From positions 372,001-436,000 of the forward strand of contig NZ_FOWE01000001.1 of assembly GCF_900115395.1 (NCBI RefSeq): 64,000 bases of DNA, read 5' to 3'. Of the stretch, positions 30,926 through 43,496 are shown in pieces (position 1 is the first letter of the stretch; each line of letters opens with the position of its first letter). The DNA is from Geodermatophilus obscurus (GTDB lineage: Bacteria; Actinomycetota; Actinomycetes; Mycobacteriales; Geodermatophilaceae). The notes below the pieces were generated by a model. It ran no database searches. It was not told where the DNA came from and saw nothing but the letters and a program-made list of their open reading frames with translations. The position numbers and the translations under genes were made by a program.

Positions 30926-31771
30926 ATGAGAGCCTGGCGGCGCTTCCGCCACCACCCGCCGGCCATGATCGGCCTGGGGATCATCGTGACGTTCGTCGGG
31001 CTGGCGATCCTGGCCCCGGTCATCTCGCCCTACGACCCGAACGCCCAGGACCTCGCCTCGTCCATCCAGGGGCCCTCCGCGGACCACTGGCTGGGCACCG
31101 ACCAGCTGGGCCGGGACATCGCCACCCGGCTGATGTACGGCGCCCGGATCTCGCTGCTGATCGGCGTGCTCGCCGTGCTCATCGGCCTGGTCGTCGGCGT
31201 GCCGCTCGGGATGGTCGCCGGGTACTACGGCGGTTGGGCCGACCTGGCCATCTCCCGGTTCGCGGACATGATGTTCGCCTTCACCAGCATCCTGCTGGCC
31301 CTCACGCTGGTCGCCGTCCTGGGCGTCAGCCTGCAGAACGTGATCATCGCGGTCGGGATCAGCGTGATCCCGGTGATCATCCGGCTGGTGCGCTCGTCGG
31401 TGCTGAGCCTGCGCGAGGAGCCCTACGTCGAGGCGGCGCGGGCGCTGGGCGCGAGCGACTTCCGGATCATCACCCGGCACGTCTTCCGCAACTCCCTGAC
31501 CCCGGTGCTGGTGCACGGCACGCTGAGCATCGGGGTGAGCATCCTGCTCGCTGCCGGGCTCGGCTTCCTGGGCCTCGGCGTGCAGTCACCCACTGCCGAG
31601 TGGGGCACGATGCTGGGCGAGGGGCGGCAGTTCATCTTCAGCGCCCCCCACCTGACCACCTTCCCCGGGATCGCGATCTTCCTCGCCATCCTCGCCTTCA
31701 ACCTGCTCGGCGATGGGCTGCGGGACGCCCTCGACCCGCGGATGCGGACCGTCGACCGGCCCGCCGCGTGA
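30926..31771 (+). CDS. peptide ABC transporter permease (DppC type)
   Basis: A 281-aa permease. It has a short N-terminal segment with one helix (MIGLGIIVTFVGLAILAPVI), the DppC motif HWLGTDQLGRDIATRLMYGA, the coupling helix EAARALGASDFRIITRHVFR, and the C-terminal GLGFLGLGVQSPTAEWGTML and NLLGDGLRDALDPRM. It starts 15 bases after dppB with GGGGAGG. Its TGA overlaps the GTG of the PLP dehydratase (GTGA), tying transport to catabolism. Confidence 0.92.
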   Translation: MRAWRRFRHHPPAMIGLGIIVTFVGLAILAPVISPYDPNAQDLASSIQGPSADHWLGTDQLGRDIATRLMYGARISLLIGVLAVLIGLVVGVPLGMVAGYYGGWADLAISRFADMMFAFTSILLALTLVAVLGVSLQNVIIAVGISVIPVIIRLVRSSVLSLREEPYVEAARALGASDFRIITRHVFRNSLTPVLVHGTLSIGVSILLAAGLGFLGLGVQSPTAEWGTMLGEGRQFIFSAPHLTTFPGIAIFLAILAFNLLGDGLRDALDPRMRTVDRPAA

Positions 31772-32763
31772 TCGGCGGCTCCCGCACGAGCGCGACCGCG
31801 CTGGTCGGCATCGACGACGTCCGGCGGGCCGCCGACCGGCTGGCCGGCCGGGTGCACCGCACCCCGGTGCTGCGGTCGACCACGCTCGGCGGGCTCTGGG
31901 ACGTGCGGCTGGACCTCAAGGCCGAGGTGTTCCAGCGGACCGGCAGCTTCAAGTCCCGCGGGGCCCTCAACACGGTGCTGTCCCTGCCGGTCGAGGAACG
32001 AGCCCGCGGGGTGATCACCCTGTCGGCCGGGAACGCCGGTGCGGCCGTCGCGTACGCGGCGGCCAGCGTCGGCGTGCCGGGGACGGTGGTCATGCCGGCG
32101 ACGGCGGTGCCGGCCAAGATCGCCGCCTGCCGGGCGTACGGCGCCGACGTGGTGCTCACCGACGGTGATCTGGTCGACACCTACCTGGCCACCGTGGCGG
32201 AGACCGGTCGCGTCCCGGTGCACCCCTTCGACGACCCCGCCGTGGTGGCCGGCACCGGCACCGTCGGGCTGGAGATCGCCGAGGACGTGCCGGACGTCGA
32301 GGTGGTGCTGGTGCCGGTCGGCGGCGGCGGGCTGATCTCGGGCGTGGCCGCCGCGCTTGCGGACCTCGCCCCCGGCGTGCGGGTGATCGGGATCGAACCC
32401 GAGACCGCCGACGTGGTGTCCCGCAGCCTGGACGCCGGCACACCGGTGCGGCTGCCGGGTGCCCGCAGCGTCGCCGACGGGCTGGCGGCGCCGATGAGCT
32501 CGCAGCTGACCCTGGACCACGTCCGGGCCTTCGTCGAACGCGTGGTGCGGGTCAGCGACGAGGACGTGCTGCGGGCGCTGGCCCTCGCGGTGCCGCGGAC
32601 CAAGCTGCTGCTCGAACCGTCCGCTGCCGCACCGCTGGCCGCCCTGATGACCGGCGTCCTGGACCTGCCGCCCGGCACCCGCGTGGTCTCCGTGGCCAGC
32701 GGCGGCAACGTCGACCTGGCCCTGTTCGGCCGGCTCCCCCCCACCCCCCGAGAGGTCCGATGA
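31768..32763 (+). CDS. PLP-dependent threonine/serine dehydratase-like enzyme
   Basis: A 331-aa fold-type II PLP enzyme without the ACT regulatory domain, so catabolic-type. The PLP Lys is in TGSFKSRGALNTVL, the phosphate loop is PVGGGGLISGVAAAL, and EPSAAAPLAAL and VASGGNVDL are near the C-terminus. The usual S-G-N-H-A-Q segment reads SAGNAGAAVAYAA, so the conserved His after Asn is missing; this may mean a different amino-acid substrate than threonine. It overlaps dppC at its start and the amidohydrolase at its end. The role is probably to deaminate a hydroxy- or substituted amino acid released from the imported compound. Confidence 0.85.
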   Translation: MIGGSRTSATALVGIDDVRRAADRLAGRVHRTPVLRSTTLGGLWDVRLDLKAEVFQRTGSFKSRGALNTVLSLPVEERARGVITLSAGNAGAAVAYAAASVGVPGTVVMPATAVPAKIAACRAYGADVVLTDGDLVDTYLATVAETGRVPVHPFDDPAVVAGTGTVGLEIAEDVPDVEVVLVPVGGGGLISGVAAALADLAPGVRVIGIEPETADVVSRSLDAGTPVRLPGARSVADGLAAPMSSQLTLDHVRAFVERVVRVSDEDVLRALALAVPRTKLLLEPSAAAPLAALMTGVLDLPPGTRVVSVASGGNVDLALFGRLPPTPREVR

Positions 32764-37338: not shown

Positions 37339-37836
37339 TCAGAAGGGCGGCTCCTCGCCGGTGCCGCCGGCCGGCGCGCCCCAGGGATCGGACGAGCCGC
37401 CTCCGCCGGTGCGGGCGAGCGCCTCCTCGGCGCCGGCCCGGCCGCCGGGGGCCCCGCCGCCGTCCCCGGAGCGCGAGACCCGGGTGACCGTCGCCGTCGC
37501 GTAGCGGAGCGACGGGCCGATCTCGTCGACCTCGAGCTCGATCACGGTGCGGTTCTCGCCCTCCTTCGTCTCGAAGGAGCGCTGCTTGAGGCGGCCCTGG
37601 GCCATCACCCGCGAGCCGCGGGTCAGCGACTCGGCGACGTGCTCCGCCGCCTGCCGCCACACGCTGCAGCGGAGGAACAGCGGCTCGCCGTCCTTCCACT
37701 CCTGCGTCTGGCGGTCGAGGGTGCGCGGGGTCGAGGCGATGGTGAAGTTGGCGACCGCCGCGCCCGAGGGTGTCCAGCGCAGCTCGGGGTCGCTGGTCAG
37801 GTTGCCGATGATGGTGATGACTGTGTCGCCGGCCAT
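37339..37836 (-). CDS. ssb: single-stranded DNA-binding protein
   Basis: A 165-aa SSB. Residues 1-~113 form the OB fold ([65 protein letters not shown]). A Gly-rich linker of about 45 residues follows, then the acidic tip EEPPF, the protein-interaction tail that recruits repair enzymes. The ATG at 37836 has GGAGG 7 bases upstream; the in-frame ATG 10 codons earlier lacks one. It is not in the rpsF-ssb-rpsR context of the housekeeping gene, so it is probably a second, damage-related paralogue (as SsbB is in other actinobacteria). Its promoter matches the RecA-NDp motif. Confidence 0.92.
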
Positions 37837-37885
37837 GATCCGGTCCTCCGTGTCGTGTCGGTGCATCGCTCAGGTGAGCGTCTGG

Positions 37886-37908
37886 AGGCTAGGGCGACCC
37901 ACCGACAG
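37886..37908 (-). promoter_or_regulatory. RecA-independent DNA-damage promoter (RecA-NDp/PafBC type) of ssb
   Basis: On the minus strand the sequence reads TGTCGGTG, 8 bases, TAGCCT. The published mycobacterial RecA-NDp consensus is tTGTCRGTG-N8-TAnnnT. Every uppercase position and the 8-base spacing match; only the weak first base differs (C). The predicted RNA start lies about 43 bases before the ssb ATG. In mycobacteria these promoters are activated by PafBC after DNA damage, independently of LexA. Confidence 0.7.
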
Positions 37909-37950
37909 TTCCGTGCCTTCGCTGCCGGCCCACCGCCGCAGGACCGCGGA

Positions 37951-37973
37951 CTGTCACCGGTGCGTGGAACGCT
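37951..37973 (+). promoter_or_regulatory. degenerate RecA-NDp-like element upstream of recD2
   Basis: CTGTCACCG, 8 bases, AACGCT. The TGTC core, the purine after it and the spacing are kept, but the GTG part reads CCG and the -10 begins with A instead of T. It is located 38-60 bases before the recD2 GTG, the right place for a promoter. Much weaker than the ssb and ATPase elements. Confidence 0.3.
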
Positions 37974-38010
37974 CGGTCGTCGGACGACGCACGAGCGAGG
38001 GGGAGCGCAG

Positions 38011-40248
38011 GTGGGGGAGGCGCGGGCCGGGGCGGTGCTGGAGGCGACGCTGGAGCGGATCACCTTCGCCAACGCCCAGACCGGGTACACCGTGGCCCGC
38101 GTCGACACCGGGCGCGGCGGTGACCTGGTCACCGTGGTGGGCTCGCTGCTTGGCGCGCAGCCGGGGGAGACCCTGCGGCTGCGCGGGCGCTGGGGAGCGC
38201 ACCCCCAGTACGGCCGGCAGTTCCTGGTCGACGACTACACGACGGTGCTGCCGGCCACCGTGCAGGGCATCCGCCGCTACCTGGGCTCCGGGCTGGTCAA
38301 GGGCATCGGCCCGCGGCTGGCCGAGCGGATCGTCGACCACTTCGGCGTCGACGCGCTGCGGGTCATCGAGGAGGAGCCGGCGCGGCTGGCCGAGGTGCCG
38401 AACCTGGGCCCGAAGCGGACCCGGCTGATCACCGCGGCGTGGGAGGAGCAGCGCGCCATCAAGGAGGTCATGGTCTTCCTGCAGGGCGTGGGTGTGTCCA
38501 CCTCGCTGGCCGTGCGCATCTACAAGCAGTACGGCGGCGCCTCGATCGGCGTCGTCCGCACCGAGCCCTACCGCCTGGCCGCCGAGGTGTGGGGGATCGG
38601 GTTCCGCACCGCCGACACGATCGCGGCCGCCGTCGGGATCCCGCACGACAGCACCCAGCGGGTCGAGGCGGGGGTCCAGTTCGTGCTCTCCGAGGCGACC
38701 GGGCAGGGGCACTGCTTCCTGCCCGAGGCCGAGCTGGTCGCCCGGGCGGTCGAGATCCTGCAGGTCCCCTCCGTCCTGGTCGGTCACTGCCTGGCCCTGC
38801 TGGTGGCCGACCAGGGGGTGATCCGGGAGGAGTTCCCCGGAGCGGCCGGGCAGCCCCCGACGGTCGCGTACTACCTCGTCCCCTTCCACCGCGCGGAGGT
38901 CTCCCTGGCCGCGGGGCTGCGGCGGCTCGCGACGGCCGACGTCGACCGGATGCCGGCCTTCGCCGCCGTCGACTGGGACGCCGCGCTGGCCTGGCTGCAC
39001 CGGCGCACCGGCGTGGACCTCGCGTCCGGCCAGCAGGAGGCCGTGCGTCTGGCGCTGACCGAGCGGGTCGCCGTGCTTACCGGTGGCCCCGGCTGCGGCA
39101 AGAGCTTCACGGTCCGCTCGATCGTCACCCTCGCGGCCGCGAAGGGCGCGCGGATCGTGCTGGCGGCGCCGACCGGGCGGGCCGCGAGGCGGCTGACCGA
39201 GCTGACCGGCGTGGAGGCGGTCACGGTGCACCGGCTCCTGGAGCTGCGCCCGGGAGGGGCCGCCGGCTTCGACCGGGACCGGCCGCTGCCGGCCGACCTG
39301 GTCGTCGTCGACGAGTCCTCGATGCTGGACCTGCTGCTGGCCAACAAGCTGGTGCGGGCCGTCGCGCCCGGCGCGCACCTGCTCCTGGTCGGCGACGTCG
39401 ACCAGCTGCCCTCCGTCGGTGCCGGCGAGGTGCTGCGCGACCTGCTGGCCGCGGGCACCCCGGTGCCGCACGTGCGCCTGACGCAGGTCTTCCGGCAGGC
39501 CGGCCGGTCGGGGGTGGTGACCAACGCCCACCGCATCAACGCCGGGCAGGTGCCCGAGGTCCGCGGTCTCGACGACTTCTTCCTCTTCGCCACCGACGAC
39601 GCCGAGGAGGCCGCCCGGCTCACCGCCGACGTCGTGGTGCGCCGGATCCCGGCCCGGTTCGGCCTCGACCCGCGCCGCGACGTCCAGGTGCTGACCCCGG
39701 TGCACCGCGGGCCGGCCGGCGCCGCCGCGCTCAACGAGCTGTTGCAGGAGGCGCTGACGCCGGCCCGGCCCGACCGCCCCGAGAAGCGGTTCGGCGGGCG
39801 GGTGTTCCGGGTCGGGGACAAGGTCAGCCAGATCCGCAACGACTACGACAAGGGGCGGAACGGGGTCTTCAACGGGACCCAGGGCGTCGTCACCGCGGTC
39901 GACGCCGTCGAGCAGACCGTCACCGTCCACACCGACGAGGACGAGTCGATCCGCTACGACTTCGGCGAGCTCGACGAGCTGGTGCACGCCTACGCCGTCA
40001 CCGTCCACCGGTCCCAGGGCAGCGAGTACCCCTGCGTCGTCGTCCCGCTGACCACCAGCGCCTGGACGATGCTGCAGCGCAACCTGCTCTACACCGCGGT
40101 CACCCGCGCCAAGCAGCTGGTCGTGCTCGTCGGGTCACCGCGGGCCCTCGCCCAGGCGGTGCGGGCCGCCGGCTCCGGACGGCGGCACACCGCCCTCGCG
40201 CACCGGCTCCGCGGCGCGGCGCCCGGGGCCGACGCCGCCGCGGCCTGA
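38011..40248 (+). CDS. recD2: RecD2-type 5'-3' DNA helicase
   Basis: A 745-aa SF1B helicase. The N-terminal ~330 residues are the RecD2-specific domain with helix-hairpin-helix elements (GLVKGIGPRLAERIVDHFG, LAEVPNLGPKRTRLI). The motor has motif I TGGPGCGKSFTVRSIV (residues ~354-369), Ia APTGRAARRLTELTG, II VVVDESSMLD, III LLLVGDVDQLPSVGAGEVL, IV LTQVFRQAGRSGVV, and motifs V/VI in DFGELDELVHAYAVTVHRSQG and LLYTAVTRAKQLVVLVG. RecD2 acts outside RecBCD in repair and replication-fork processing. The GTG at 38011 follows AGGGGGAG. It is divergent from ssb, sharing a 174-base control region. Confidence 0.93.
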   Translation: MGEARAGAVLEATLERITFANAQTGYTVARVDTGRGGDLVTVVGSLLGAQPGETLRLRGRWGAHPQYGRQFLVDDYTTVLPATVQGIRRYLGSGLVKGIGPRLAERIVDHFGVDALRVIEEEPARLAEVPNLGPKRTRLITAAWEEQRAIKEVMVFLQGVGVSTSLAVRIYKQYGGASIGVVRTEPYRLAAEVWGIGFRTADTIAAAVGIPHDSTQRVEAGVQFVLSEATGQGHCFLPEAELVARAVEILQVPSVLVGHCLALLVADQGVIREEFPGAAGQPPTVAYYLVPFHRAEVSLAAGLRRLATADVDRMPAFAAVDWDAALAWLHRRTGVDLASGQQEAVRLALTERVAVLTGGPGCGKSFTVRSIVTLAAAKGARIVLAAPTGRAARRLTELTGVEAVTVHRLLELRPGGAAGFDRDRPLPADLVVVDESSMLDLLLANKLVRAVAPGAHLLLVGDVDQLPSVGAGEVLRDLLAAGTPVPHVRLTQVFRQAGRSGVVTNAHRINAGQVPEVRGLDDFFLFATDDAEEAARLTADVVVRRIPARFGLDPRRDVQVLTPVHRGPAGAAALNELLQEALTPARPDRPEKRFGGRVFRVGDKVSQIRNDYDKGRNGVFNGTQGVVTAVDAVEQTVTVHTDEDESIRYDFGELDELVHAYAVTVHRSQGSEYPCVVVPLTTSAWTMLQRNLLYTAVTRAKQLVVLVGSPRALAQAVRAAGSGRRHTALAHRLRGAAPGADAAAA

Positions 40249-40267
40249 CCGGACGGCCGGGGCCGGT

Positions 40268-40290
40268 GGCGTTCGCCGGCGGCGAACGCC
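40268..40290 (+). terminator. perfect inverted repeat after recD2
   Basis: 10-base arms GGCGTTCGCC / GGCGAACGCC around GGC, 19 bases after the recD2 stop and about 40 bases before the ATPase promoter. A terminator is the simplest reading. The GTTCG...CGAAC order is the reverse of a LexA box, so it is not one. Confidence 0.5.
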
Positions 40291-40331
40291 GCCCGTGACG
40301 GGAGGTGGGTGTCAAGCCGACACGCCGGTTT

Positions 40332-40354
40332 CTGTCGGTACCCGTCCCTAGTGT
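40332..40354 (+). promoter_or_regulatory. RecA-NDp/PafBC-type promoter of the ATPase-nuclease operon
   Basis: CTGTCGGTA, 8 bases, TAGTGT. Compared with TGTCRGTG-N8-TAnnnT, only the last G of the upstream box differs (A). It shares CTGTCGGT, the exact spacing and CCCTAG with the ssb promoter, although the rest diverges, which suggests a functional pair. The predicted RNA start is about 32 bases before the ATG. Confidence 0.6.
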
Positions 40355-40392
40355 CCGGGGTGACATCTTCCCCGTGTCACCAAGGAGCTCCC

Positions 40393-41991
40393 ATGACCGT
40401 CCCCGGTCTCAAGACCCGCAAGCCCACCGGCCGCGTCCCGTGGCCGTGCATCCTCCTCGAGGGAGAGGAGAAGGCGGGCAAGAGCTGGGCCCTCGCCCAG
40501 TTCAGCAGCAGCGACAGGATCGGCGCGCTCTACTGGATCGACCTCAACGAGGGCGCCGGCGACGAGTACGGCGCGATCCCCGGCGCGAGGTACCAGCTGA
40601 TCGAGCACGACGGTTCCTACGCCGCGGTGCTCGCCGCGGTGCAGGCGGTCAAGGCCGAGGCGCGCCGCGCCGCCGACGCCGGTCAGCCGCCGGTGGTGCT
40701 GGCGATCGACACCGGCTCGGCAATCTGGGACGGCCTGAAGGACTGGGCCAGCGACCGCGCCGCCAAGTCGGCCCGCAACCGCGAGCTGCTCAAGCGCGAC
40801 CCCAACGCCGAGGTCACCATCAGCCAGAACCTGTGGAACGACGCGGGCTCGCGCTGGCGCAAGCTGCAGACCGAGCTGCTCACCTTCCCCGGCATCGTGG
40901 TGGTCACCGCCCGCGGCAAGGAGGTCACCGAGGTCGACGCCAACGGCCGTCCGATCGAGGGGCAGAAAACCTGGTCGGTGCAGACCCACCGGGAGTTCCC
41001 GTACGCGGCCTCGGTGTGGATGCGCCTGCGCCGCGGGCGCCGGCCGCTGATCGTCGGCGCGCGCAGCGTGCACGTCGGCATCAAGCCCAACAGCGACCCG
41101 GCGCGGGAGGTCACCGACTCGGCGGCCACCGGCCGGCTGCTGGAGTGGCTGGTCTTCGACGCGCTCAAGTGCGACCCGGGCACCGCGCACGTGCGTGACC
41201 TCGTGTCCTTCCACGGCGGCGGGCTGCTCGAGCACGAGCGCACCGAGGAGGCCCGGGCCCCCCGGCAGGCCACCCAGCAGGAGGACTGGCCGGCCGCCCG
41301 GCAGGTGAGCCAGCAGGCGGCCCAGCCGCCCGCTCGGCAGGTCACGCAGCAGGCGACGACGCCGGCCGCGCCACCGACCGGCCGCGCGGGTGTCCGGCCG
41401 GGCGCATCGCAGGAGCCCGACGTCGCCGACCTGGTCGACCGGATCGGCGACGCCCGCGGCGACGACGAGCTGCGCGAGGTGTGGACCGAGGGCAACCGCG
41501 CCGGGCTCCTGCAGGCCGAGGTGGCGACCCCCAGCGGCTCGTACACGATCGCGGAGCTGATCCGCGCCCGGCACGAGCAGCTCCTCGAGGCGTCGATGAA
41601 GGCCCACCCGGCCGGACGGCGCCGCGTCGCGACCGGCGACCCGTCCGCTCCGCAGACGCCGCCCGCGGTGGTGCAGGCCGCCCAGGCCGCGTCCGCGGCC
41701 GCGCAGGCGGCCATGGCCGCGCCCCGTCCGGAGGACGGTCGCGAGGTCGCGCCGGCGAACCCGCTGCTGGAGTCCTCGCCGACCCCGGACGACCCGAAGG
41801 ACCGGCGCAGCACCGCCGCGCGACGCGGCGTGCTCGCCAGCCTCGAGGCGCTGGGCGTGACCGGGGAGCAGATCGGCGCCCGCTTCGGCCGGCCCGTCGA
41901 GCACGTGGCGACCAAGCGGCTGACCGCGCTGGTGCGCGAGGTCATCGCCGCGCAGCGCACCGGCACCGACGGCCGCTCCGACGTCGCCTGA
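40393..41991 (+). CDS. RecA-fold ATPase resembling phage Sak4-type recombination proteins
   Basis: A 532-aa protein. Residues 1-~260 are a compact ATPase: Walker A GEEKAGKSW at 24-32 and Walker B VVLAIDTGSAIW with Asp106. TISQNLWNDAGSRWRKLQTE and FPGIVVVTARGKEVTEVD follow, as in phage Sak4/RecA-like single-strand annealing ATPases. Residues ~280-360 are Gln/Ala/Pro-rich with two RQV(S/T)QQA repeats, likely a flexible linker. A helical segment DLVDRIGDARGDDELREVWT, like C-terminal regions of phage recombinases, and a final helical domain follow. AAGGAG precedes the ATG. It is transcribed with the RecB/Cas4-like nuclease. Function inferred: DNA pairing or loading in repair; no phage structural genes are near. 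Confidence 0.8.
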   Translation: MTVPGLKTRKPTGRVPWPCILLEGEEKAGKSWALAQFSSSDRIGALYWIDLNEGAGDEYGAIPGARYQLIEHDGSYAAVLAAVQAVKAEARRAADAGQPPVVLAIDTGSAIWDGLKDWASDRAAKSARNRELLKRDPNAEVTISQNLWNDAGSRWRKLQTELLTFPGIVVVTARGKEVTEVDANGRPIEGQKTWSVQTHREFPYAASVWMRLRRGRRPLIVGARSVHVGIKPNSDPAREVTDSAATGRLLEWLVFDALKCDPGTAHVRDLVSFHGGGLLEHERTEEARAPRQATQQEDWPAARQVSQQAAQPPARQVTQQATTPAAPPTGRAGVRPGASQEPDVADLVDRIGDARGDDELREVWTEGNRAGLLQAEVATPSGSYTIAELIRARHEQLLEASMKAHPAGRRRVATGDPSAPQTPPAVVQAAQAASAAAQAAMAAPRPEDGREVAPANPLLESSPTPDDPKDRRSTAARRGVLASLEALGVTGEQIGARFGRPVEHVATKRLTALVREVIAAQRTGTDGRSDVA

Positions 41992-42029
41992 GCCCCGCTG
42001 CCGGAGCGGGGCCGGTCCCCCGCTCCGGC
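41992..42029 (+). promoter_or_regulatory. two mutually exclusive hairpins between ATPase and nuclease genes
   Basis: Hairpin 1 pairs 41992-41999 with 42005-42012 (perfect 8 bases, 5-base loop). Hairpin 2 pairs 42000-42010 with 42019-42029 (perfect 11 bases, 8-base loop). They share 42005-42010, so only one can form. The second ends about 8 bases before the nuclease ribosome site. This resembles an attenuator or processing switch, but it could be a terminator with incidental overlap. Confidence 0.5.
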
Positions 42030-42050
42030 GCCCCGATGGAGGGAGACGCG

Positions 42051-43100
42051 ATGACCGCCGTCCTGCCTGCCCGTCCCAGCGCCGCCGAGCGGCGCGCCGC
42101 CCCCAGCCTGGCCGCGGCCGTCCGTGACCTCGACCGCCGCCGGTCCCGCTCCCGCCAGCGGATGATCGGCGCCTCCGAGCTCGGCGAGTGCCGCCTCCGG
42201 GCGGCCTACCGGGTCGCCCGGCGCCGGCCGACGAACACCCGTACGGGGCTGCAGGCCTTCCTGGGCACCGAGCTGCACCGCGGGGTGCTGCGCGCGCTGC
42301 GGCGCCAGTACGGCGGGCTGACCGAGGTCGCGCTGAGGGGCGAGCAGGTCAAGGGCCGCTGCGACTGGTGGCACGCCCCGGTCGTGGAGGACCTCAAGAC
42401 GACGTCGCGGTTCGGCTTCGAGCGCGTCCTCACCCGCGGGGTCCCGGTGCGGCACTGGTTCCAGGTGGCGGTCTACGCCTGGCTGCTCCGGACCGGGCAG
42501 ACCGCCGACCGCCGGCTGCCGGCGGGCTCCGCGCAGGACGTCGACGGACTGCGCATCCGCTACCTGTCCCGCGACTCGGGCGAGGACGTGGTGTTCGAGG
42601 CCGGCCACGACCCGGCGCTGACCGCCGAGGCGCTCATGTGGCTCACCGACGTCTACGCCACCGTGGAGGAGGAGGGGGACGAGGCCGTCCCGCGCGACGG
42701 GTTCGGCCCCGGCGTGGACACCATGTGCGACTGGTGCCCCTTCCTCGACCTGTGCTGGGGCCTGCCCGTCGACCCGGAGACGGAGGGCGACGTGTCCCGC
42801 CAGTCCCGCCTGACGGTCACCGACGAGGACTACGTCGCCGCCGTCCGCGACTACGACGCCGCTCGGGCGGCCGAGAACGAGGCGCGGCGGTCCAAGGAGT
42901 ACGCCCGGGAACGGCTCCGGGGCCGGTCCGGGCCGGCCGGCGAGCTGCACTGCGAGTGGTCCGGGGGCGGCCTGCGCACGCAGGTGGACAAGGACGCCGC
43001 CGTCGAGCGGCTGGCCGAGCTCGGTGAGGTCGTGCCCACCCGGACCGGTCGCAGCCCGCAGACGATCCGGGTGACGCGCAACGGCGTCCGGCCCGACTGA
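42051..43100 (+). CDS. RecB/Cas4-like PD-(D/E)XK nuclease with candidate Fe-S cysteines
   Basis: A 349-aa nuclease. LGTELHRGVL gives the early His (76), GRCDWW the metal Asp (105), VVEDLKTT the E-D-x-K core (113-116), and HWFQVAVYAWLL the RecB-type Q-x3-Y motif (Gln138, Tyr142). Four Cys, one at 47 (LGECRLRAAYR) and three at 226, 229 and 235 (MCDWCPFLDLC), have the C...CxxC-x5-C spacing that binds 4Fe-4S in Cas4 and AddB. About 110 further residues are helical (AAVRDYDAARAAENEARRSK). GGAGGGAG precedes the ATG. No Cas1, Cas2 or CRISPR is near, so a recombination exonuclease partnering the upstream ATPase is likely. Confidence 0.85.
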   Translation: MTAVLPARPSAAERRAAPSLAAAVRDLDRRRSRSRQRMIGASELGECRLRAAYRVARRRPTNTRTGLQAFLGTELHRGVLRALRRQYGGLTEVALRGEQVKGRCDWWHAPVVEDLKTTSRFGFERVLTRGVPVRHWFQVAVYAWLLRTGQTADRRLPAGSAQDVDGLRIRYLSRDSGEDVVFEAGHDPALTAEALMWLTDVYATVEEEGDEAVPRDGFGPGVDTMCDWCPFLDLCWGLPVDPETEGDVSRQSRLTVTDEDYVAAVRDYDAARAAENEARRSKEYARERLRGRSGPAGELHCEWSGGGLRTQVDKDAAVERLAELGEVVPTRTGRSPQTIRVTRNGVRPD

Positions 43101-43129
43101 CCGGCCGGTGCCCGTCCGTCGTCGACGGG

Positions 43130-43158
43130 TCGACAACCGTCCCCCCCGGGTGCACCAT
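43130..43158 (+). promoter_or_regulatory. candidate promoter of the 90-aa SOS gene
   Basis: TCGACA at 43130-43135, a 17-base spacer and CACCAT at 43153-43158. The LexA box starts on the last base of the -10, the classic arrangement for repression. Confidence 0.45.
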
Positions 43159-43173
43159 CGAACACAGGTTCGA
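43158..43173 (+). promoter_or_regulatory. LexA/SOS box (perfect)
   Basis: TCGAACACAGGTTCGA is a perfect 6-base-arm dyad equal to the actinobacterial/Bacillus-type SOS consensus TCGAAC-N4-GTTCGA. It lies 50 bases upstream of the ATG at 43224. LexA repression of that gene, relieved after DNA damage, is predicted. Confidence 0.8.
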
Positions 43174-43223
43174 AGGCCCGGGCACTCGCCGCCCGGTCAG
43201 CCCGATTCCTGGGGAGGCCCGGA

Positions 43224-43496
43224 ATGACCACCGTCTCGACGTCCCACCTGCCCGCCGGTGAACCGGTCCTGACCACCGACGTCGTCGGCTCGGACTTCGG
43301 TCTGCCCCTGGTCCGGCCGACCCGGCGGAGGCAGGGGAGCCGGGTCCGCGTCGTGCGCTCGCGCTGCCGGGCCCACGGCGGGGTCGTCGTGTGGTTCACC
43401 GACGGCACCAAGACACCTCCCCTCCACGGGCGCACGGCCTGGGTCGTCGCCGAGCCCGGGCCGGACGCGCAGACCCCGGCGGGCGAGGTCGCCTGA
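43224..43496 (+). CDS. small SOS-controlled protein, unknown function
   Basis: A 90-aa protein with GGGGAGG about 6 bases before the ATG and a perfect LexA box upstream. The N-terminal third is polar (TTVSTSHLPAGEPVLTTDVV). The middle is very basic (RPTRRRQGSRVRVVRSRCRA). The C-terminal part, GGVVVWFTDGTKTPPLHGR and AWVVAEPG, is beta-rich. It has one Cys and no membrane segment. I recognise no family, including SulA, ImuA or DinB fragments. Small damage-induced proteins often block division or modulate nucleases, but nothing in the sequence proves this. It follows the nuclease by 123 bases with its own promoter. Confidence 0.72.
   Translation: MTTVSTSHLPAGEPVLTTDVVGSDFGLPLVRPTRRRQGSRVRVVRSRCRAHGGVVVWFTDGTKTPPLHGRTAWVVAEPGPDAQTPAGEVA

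Follow-up and report, generated by a model that had tools for sequence, protein, structure and literature searches.

How does a recombination ATPase of phage type come to stand under host damage-type promoters in the chromosome of a soil actinobacterial genus? The question is raised by a five-gene locus of Geodermatophilus obscurus (hereafter the island) that spans 37,339-43,496 of a 64,000-nucleotide stretch (the window; contig NZ_FOWE01000001.1, positions 372,001 to 436,000) and encodes a single-stranded DNA-binding protein (SSB2), the helicase RecD2, a Sak4-like ATPase, a nuclease and a small protein. An initial annotation, made from the sequence alone, had read these genes as a DNA-damage repair set, and all five were confirmed to be in place. 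Our analysis points to a chromosomally fixed, phage-derived recombination module that has been domesticated as damage-inducible repair machinery and combined with an SSB paralogue of host type and with RecD2, a reading to which we assign a probability of roughly 0.6. It is based on gene identities, the RecA-type fold of the ATPase, catalytic residues, promoter motifs, co-distribution, the phage ancestry of the ATPase and purifying selection.

Conserved promoter motifs of two damage regulons

The three damage-response promoters of two regulons described in the initial annotation were recovered (Table 1). Two follow the PafBC/RecA-NDp pattern, for which the accessible part of a mycobacterial study gives the consensus tTGTCRgtg-8nt-TannnT (PMC5656591); the third is a perfect LexA box. 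The 4.96 Mb genome to which the window belongs has 14 matches to the PafBC pattern, 11 to the LexA pattern and none to either control (the reversed pattern in the case of PafBC). Outside the island there are 22 of these sites, and at 10 of them one downstream open reading frame was profiled. The PafBC sites tested precede genes for a proteasome ATPase, RadA, SbcD, GyrB and a RecB/AddB-like nuclease (the last below cut-offs), and the LexA sites tested precede genes for DNA polymerase IV, RecA, RuvC, DnaB and one weak LysM/YneA-like match. Reading by eye placed pup and lexA behind such sites as well; one site outside the profiled set adjoins an aldo-keto-reductase-like reading frame. At the sites checked, each pattern is thus associated with repair and damage genes in this genome.

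Across 475 kb comprising the window and homologous loci, every one of the 31 strict PafBC matches precedes ssb2 or the ATPase gene, and 10 of 12 LexA sites stand no more than 260 bases ahead of the small gene. When up to one mismatch was allowed, the ssb2 motif was found approximately 70 bases ahead of the gene in 24/24 loci, window included, and the ATPase motif at -60/-61 in 24 of 25 islands (24/26 ATPase loci if the prophage-like locus of genome G027 is counted). The two exceptions are the island of G057, with 2 mismatches, and G027, with 4. Among 1000 shuffled upstream controls a one-mismatch match appeared in 2 and a zero-mismatch match in none. The same scan gave no PafBC match better than two mismatches upstream of recD2, the nuclease gene or the small gene; two-mismatch sites occur upstream of recD2 in 6/24 loci as compared with 7/480 shuffles, a small excess that is unexplained. 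The genome-wide counts, set against their controls, put the promoter elements far above chance.

Table 1 Features of the island in the window
Feature	Coordinates	Strand	Description
ssb2	37339..37836	-	SSB paralogue of host type, 165 aa, tail GEEPPF; PF00436 E 4e-29, NCBIfam profile; 77% identical to the genome's second SSB (SSB1, contig C20)
PafBC/RecA-NDp type promoter of ssb2	37886..37907	-	TGTCRGT-N9-TANNNT
recD2	38011..40248	+	SF1B helicase, 745 aa; TIGR01448 E 1.5e-245, above family cut-off
PafBC/RecA-NDp type promoter of ATPase gene	40333..40354	+	Motif match
Sak4-like RecA-core ATPase gene	40393..41991	+	532 aa; core ~1-260, Walker A GEEKAGKS, helical C-terminal domain ~468-526
AddB/Cas4-type PD-(D/E)XK nuclease gene	42051..43100	+	349 aa; Fe-S type cysteines and catalytic motifs
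Perfect LexA box CGAACACAGGTTCG	43159..43172	.	Upstream of small gene; pattern CGAAC-N4-GTTCG
Small protein gene	43224..43496	+	90 aa, function unassigned; in 24/112 family genomes, every one island-bearing

The LexA box shows a more varied arrangement. A perfect box stands ahead of the small gene (within 330 bases) in 15 of 24 genomes. Nuclease and small gene share one stretch in 18 genomes, overlapping by 4 nt in 6 of them and being spaced in 12; the box is present in 0/6 of the former and 9/12 of the latter. Because the box is absent when the genes overlap and mostly present when they are spaced, the small gene would appear mostly to lie either within a PafBC-type operon or under LexA. Copies located elsewhere in G048, G049, G050, G057 and G107 have the box (the G107 copy contains an in-frame TGA), as does the second copy of G052, at -241. 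In G043 and G111 the box lies approximately 250 bases upstream of a start codon that is uncertain. Neither overlap nor box is found for the spaced copies of G040 and G062, the island copy of G052 and the G058 copy, which is located elsewhere. The small protein itself had no family match at E < 0.1 in the profile search; an SH3-like Pfam domain, matched by 2/17 members with a best E of 0.004, was not relied on.

Distribution and synteny

The co-occurrence of the ATPase with ssb and recD2, which the initial annotation had suggested scoring, was borne out in a sample of 112 Geodermatophilaceae genomes (RecD2 threshold E 1e-100; genus as labelled in the genome set). RecD2 was found in 25 genomes and the chromosomal ATPase in the same 25; a 26th ATPase, that of G027, is 40% identical and prophage-like. 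Two SSB matches were obtained in all 25, and also in G024, G033, G039 and G073. Within the island-bearing set, which consists of 23 of the 26 Geodermatophilus genomes and two of other genera (g10, g12), the nuclease is present in 22/25 and the small gene in 24/25. The layout is shared by 24 of 25, with ssb2 and recD2 as divergent neighbours and the ATPase gene ~0.1-4.4 kb downstream of recD2; G057 retains all parts on three contigs (ssb2-recD2; ATPase-nuclease; small gene). Identity across islands is 85-94% for the nuclease and 89-97% for the ATPase core, and the named relatives with a nuclease in this range comprise 17 Geodermatophilus records and one 'Frankiales' metagenome-assembled genome (18 loci). 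The related genomes G048, G049 and G050, one of them a single 5.32 Mb contig, keep ATPase, recD2 and ssb2; their small gene is located elsewhere, behind a perfect LexA box.

In a sample of 397 genomes of the order, the ATPase was found in 30, of which 18 are islands, one is G027 and 11 are others. No RecD2 and no nuclease of the island kind were found in the 10-16 kb read around these 11, and an SSB is present near two of them. Of the candidates tested in their vicinity, 5/5 integrase candidates proved to be integrases and 3/3 nuclease candidates YqaJ; one of the 11 has a core identical to that of plasmid pAmyja1, and five further ones were judged by eye only to be in a mobile setting. The nuclease was detected in 19/397 order genomes (16 islands and 3 others) and in 2/394 class genomes, namely the window and G601, the latter with adjacent ATPase and nuclease.

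The initial annotation had also noted that phage genes are lacking nearby. The five flanking genes tested around the ATPase-nuclease pair are all of metabolic or housekeeping type (M20 peptidase, PALP enzyme, creatininase, FAD oxidoreductase and ATP-grasp), and no phage structural, lysis or integration gene is among them. Elsewhere in the window, a tRNA-Ile (gat) call at 31753-31849 measures 97 nt, which exceeds the usual length of a bacterial tRNA. Approximately 110 kb off, a stretch that shares 72-78% identity with parts of recD2 (G000:C8:520893-521557; L003, L004) perhaps encodes another RecD-like helicase.

Fold and conserved residues of the ATPase and nuclease

The ATPase matches phrog_1366 (E 2.5e-48), itself of unassigned function, and falls half a bit below the cut-off for PF13479 AAA_24 (E 6.9e-6, 26.5 bits vs 27). 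Residues G24, G29 and K30 are invariant in 40 aligned rows. A search with its sequence against those of solved structures gave no match. The AF2 model has a mean pLDDT of 82, with the core mostly > 90, and Foldseek placed RadA first (9.5e-7) and the Sak4 structure 8rc5 at rank 18 (3e-5). VIA-align superposed the model on 8rc5 (219 residues) with Z 14.8 and rmsd 3.4 over 192 residues; the top row, at Z 15.4, was a chain of a RAD51-paralogue complex. The modelled core is thus RecA-type and matches Sak4; RAD51 proteins match it about equally, leaving the two readings tied. A helical C-terminal domain (residues 468-526, window ~41794-41970), in which residues 481-520 have pLDDT > 90, is kept in the island ATPases and missing from three viral ATPases aligned in full.

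Two island ATPases (L174 in G049, contig C38; L175 in G107, contig C1) and the viral homologue L157 carry at the same point, between GK and S of Walker A, an in-frame insert of ~350 aa with LAGLIDADG-like blocks, first residue Ala and terminal VTHN. This is an intein, possibly of class 3. P-loop inteins are known from mycobacteriophage terminases, according to the accessible text of PMC5050341.

The nuclease matches PF12705 PDDEXK_1 above cut-off (E 1.2e-5) and phrog_1706 (E 3.7e-15). Its motif residues H76, E92, D105, E113-D114-x-K116, Q138 and Y142 are invariant in 19/19 rows, as are cysteines C47 and C226-x2-C229-x5-C235, which form an Fe-S type C...C-x2-C-x5-C arrangement; one upstream and three downstream cysteines with C-x2-C-x5-C spacing are the pattern of the AddB/Cas4/RecB family. 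In ten viral homologues, 14 of 16 compared positions are identical, including all 12 catalytic and Fe-S-type cysteine positions, while I39 and C301 are not conserved. The AF2 model of the nuclease is poor (pLDDT 42.5), and the search against solved-structure sequences returned a single chance-level match (E 0.51).

Phage ancestry and selection

The initial annotation's view of ATPase and nuclease as a phage-type pair is supported. Matches to the ATPase core were obtained in 147 phage records, with up to 55% identity, among the matches listed, to named actinophage 'RecA-like recombinases'; it is also found in 8 plasmids (31-38% identity) and 35 IMG/VR contigs (36-60%). A profile search of the viral neighbourhoods located a homologous nuclease just downstream of the ATPase in at least 10 of the 35 contigs, a lower bound because several viral stretches end early. 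In the one viral contig checked, a GH25 lysozyme gene and, by eye, a tail-like gene lie near the pair. No match to the nuclease had been obtained among 50,697 phage records by tblastn or in IMG/VR by peptide patterns; since the later profile search did find the viral nuclease, these negatives reflect limits of sensitivity.

In a tree of 67 ATPase sequences, those of the 18 islands cluster as a single group (support 0.76, or 1.0 when viral L131 is included; labels after re-rooting). Since they group together inside the phage tree, a single domestication of the ATPase is likely. Median pairwise dN/dS, the ratio of nonsynonymous to synonymous substitution rates, was computed over 17-19 sequences and is 0.19 for the ATPase core, 0.20 for the nuclease and 0.21 for RecD2, with SSB2 at 0.32, the small gene at 0.42 and the ATPase C-terminus at 0.52. 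The ATPase core and the nuclease are under purifying selection.

A marker tree of 1,567 columns, with modest support, placed the island-less G061 with the island-bearing G051 (0.99), and G044 and G059, which also have no island, amid genomes that carry it (supports 0.27 to 0.49). The nesting of these three among carriers suggests later losses. An earlier marker tree built from 5 kb slices was discarded due to long artefact branches. The SSB tree is poorly resolved save for one SSB2 group (0.98); outside the genus, an SSB2-type paralogue in G033 (contig C101, L240) lies beside a gene whose product, judged by eye, resembles a LigD polymerase domain.

Proposed mechanism and alternatives

From these properties of the locus and from work on the Sak4 protein of phage HK620 we infer a damage-induced annealing route, including its induction, the SSB contact, the annealing, the order of steps and the role of the small protein. 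Single-stranded DNA produced by damage would activate PafBC, which would turn on ssb2 and the ATPase-nuclease operon, and the small protein would be added on release of LexA. Broken ends would then be processed by the nuclease and RecD2 to bare single strands, SSB2 would coat these strands, and the ATPase, recruited via the SSB tail, would anneal complementary strands, amounting to a RecA-independent route of single-strand-annealing repair. PafBC is reported to be activated by single-stranded DNA in the accessible part of PMC11804915, so that the substrate of the module would also be what turns it on. HK620 Sak4, as far as the available text of PMC5928155 describes, anneals single-stranded DNA with ATP, is stimulated by its SSB, and needs the last six residues of that SSB; the same source states that up to 80% of sak4 genes adjoin ssb.

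Several observations weigh against domestication as a repair module, or complicate it. The nuclease-bearing viral ATPases form a branch of their own, and the closest viral relatives of the island ATPases have no such nuclease in the stretches read; joint arrival of the pair is for this reason unsupported, and the nuclease may have joined separately. The fold as modelled cannot tell an annealase from a RAD51-paralogue-like mediator. SSB2 is host-type rather than a phage SSB and its tail is nearly the same as that of SSB1, so that nothing in the sequence points to a specific partnership of SSB2 with the ATPase. The nuclease is missing from G048, G049 and G050, and the small gene from G051. G044, G059 and G061 (3/26 congeners) and all other-genus genomes but two have no island, which makes it a lineage trait that is dispensable for life and not the basis of stress tolerance in the family. 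The island-bearing G060, G107 and G111 fall outside the main carrier group, among genera that lack the island; inheritance is therefore no clean single-clade story, and gains, losses and transfer are indistinguishable. The domestication proposed in the initial annotation draws support from chromosomal location, synteny and purifying selection, and fits less well with the ATPase being found elsewhere, where examined, in phages, prophage-like stretches and plasmids.

The ATPase might instead act as a mediator, a protein like archaeal RadB or RAD51 paralogues that loads or remodels RecA on the SSB2-coated DNA generated by RecD2 and the nuclease. The model fits RAD51-paralogue complexes as well as it fits Sak4 (human BCDX2 chain D, Z 15.2 vs 14.8) and the genome has a RecA gene with a LexA box, yet the phage relatives adjoin exonucleases (YqaJ in the 3/3 reading frames tested, besides the island-type nuclease in viral contigs), and an exonuclease neighbour is the usual layout of annealase modules. 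We regard a mediator role as unlikely, though the most credible of the alternatives. The nuclease and helicase could instead, with the ATPase, attack or block invading DNA as an anti-phage defence induced by infection damage. PADLOC profiles for RecD-like defence helicases do match RecD2 (E 8.6e-72 and 5.9e-44), and its Cas4 profile matches the nuclease weakly (0.0024). However, RecD2 scores well above the cut-off of its equivalog family, so these are probably family cross-hits; the ATPase, small protein and SSB have no PADLOC match at E 0.01, and the island is kept in 23/26 congeners with host damage-type promoters, which renders defence improbable. Least plausible of all, and hardly to be expected, is a decaying prophage remnant that neighbours ssb2 and recD2 by chance and serves no host function. 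The phage type of the ATPase and the three island-less congeners would agree with decay, but the identity among islands, dN/dS near 0.2, intact catalytic residues, PafBC motifs at fixed distance and the absence of phage genes among the five tested flanks all speak against it.

We thus favour the domesticated, damage-inducible repair module. A more far-reaching version is tentative and, to our mind, has somewhat worse than even odds: that Geodermatophilus possesses its own damage-inducible, RecA-independent pathway of genome reassembly, in which a phage-type annealase and exonuclease were domesticated around a dedicated SSB and RecD2, under two damage regulons and with a new SOS-controlled partner protein, as an independent counterpart of Deinococcus DdrB-type annealing repair. 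G. poikilotrophi is reported to withstand mitomycin C and drying as well as ionising and UV radiation (PMC4119925, in the part accessible).

Phage annealase-exonuclease modules are well known; a chromosome-fixed copy under two host damage regulons across a stress-tolerant genus would, if true, be a clear case of passage from virus to host repair. The island offers a concrete, deletable locus for studying how Geodermatophilus survives chromosome breakage, with island-less congeners as a natural comparison, and an actinobacterial Sak4-type protein may serve genome engineering. A literature search by title and abstract start, with most subscription journals outside its scope, gave no description of this locus or of a Geodermatophilus Sak4, and the described mycobacterial PafBC regulon is not known to include a Sak4-type ATPase.

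Comparison with known systems

The closest likeness is to the phage Sak4/SSB/exonuclease modules (HK620; phrog_1366), with which the island shares a core-only RecA fold, Walker A, a nuclease neighbour and an SSB nearby, as well as the core identity to named actinophage proteins given above. As to the ssb gene beside the ATPase gene, ssb2 lies beyond recD2 in 24/25 islands (split in G057). Unlike the phage modules, the island is chromosomal and syntenic in one genus, has PafBC-type promoters, a host-type SSB and RecD2, and its ATPase has the C-terminal domain that the three fully aligned viral proteins lack. The nuclease shares PD-(D/E)XK motifs and cysteine spacing with the AddB/Cas4/RecB-family Fe-S nucleases, and differs in being stand-alone, with no helicase domain and a weak profile match to PDDEXK_1. 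The promoter type is that of the mycobacterial PafBC regulon (PMC5656591, cited from the accessible part), here also standing before mpa, radA and sbcD. Deinococcus provides an analogy only: DdrB is a radiation-induced, SSB-like annealing protein of a stress-tolerant genus (PMC3739723 and PMC3834827, in their accessible parts), and where Deinococcus employs the regulators DdrO/IrrE (PMC5552922, likewise), the island has PafBC and LexA motifs.

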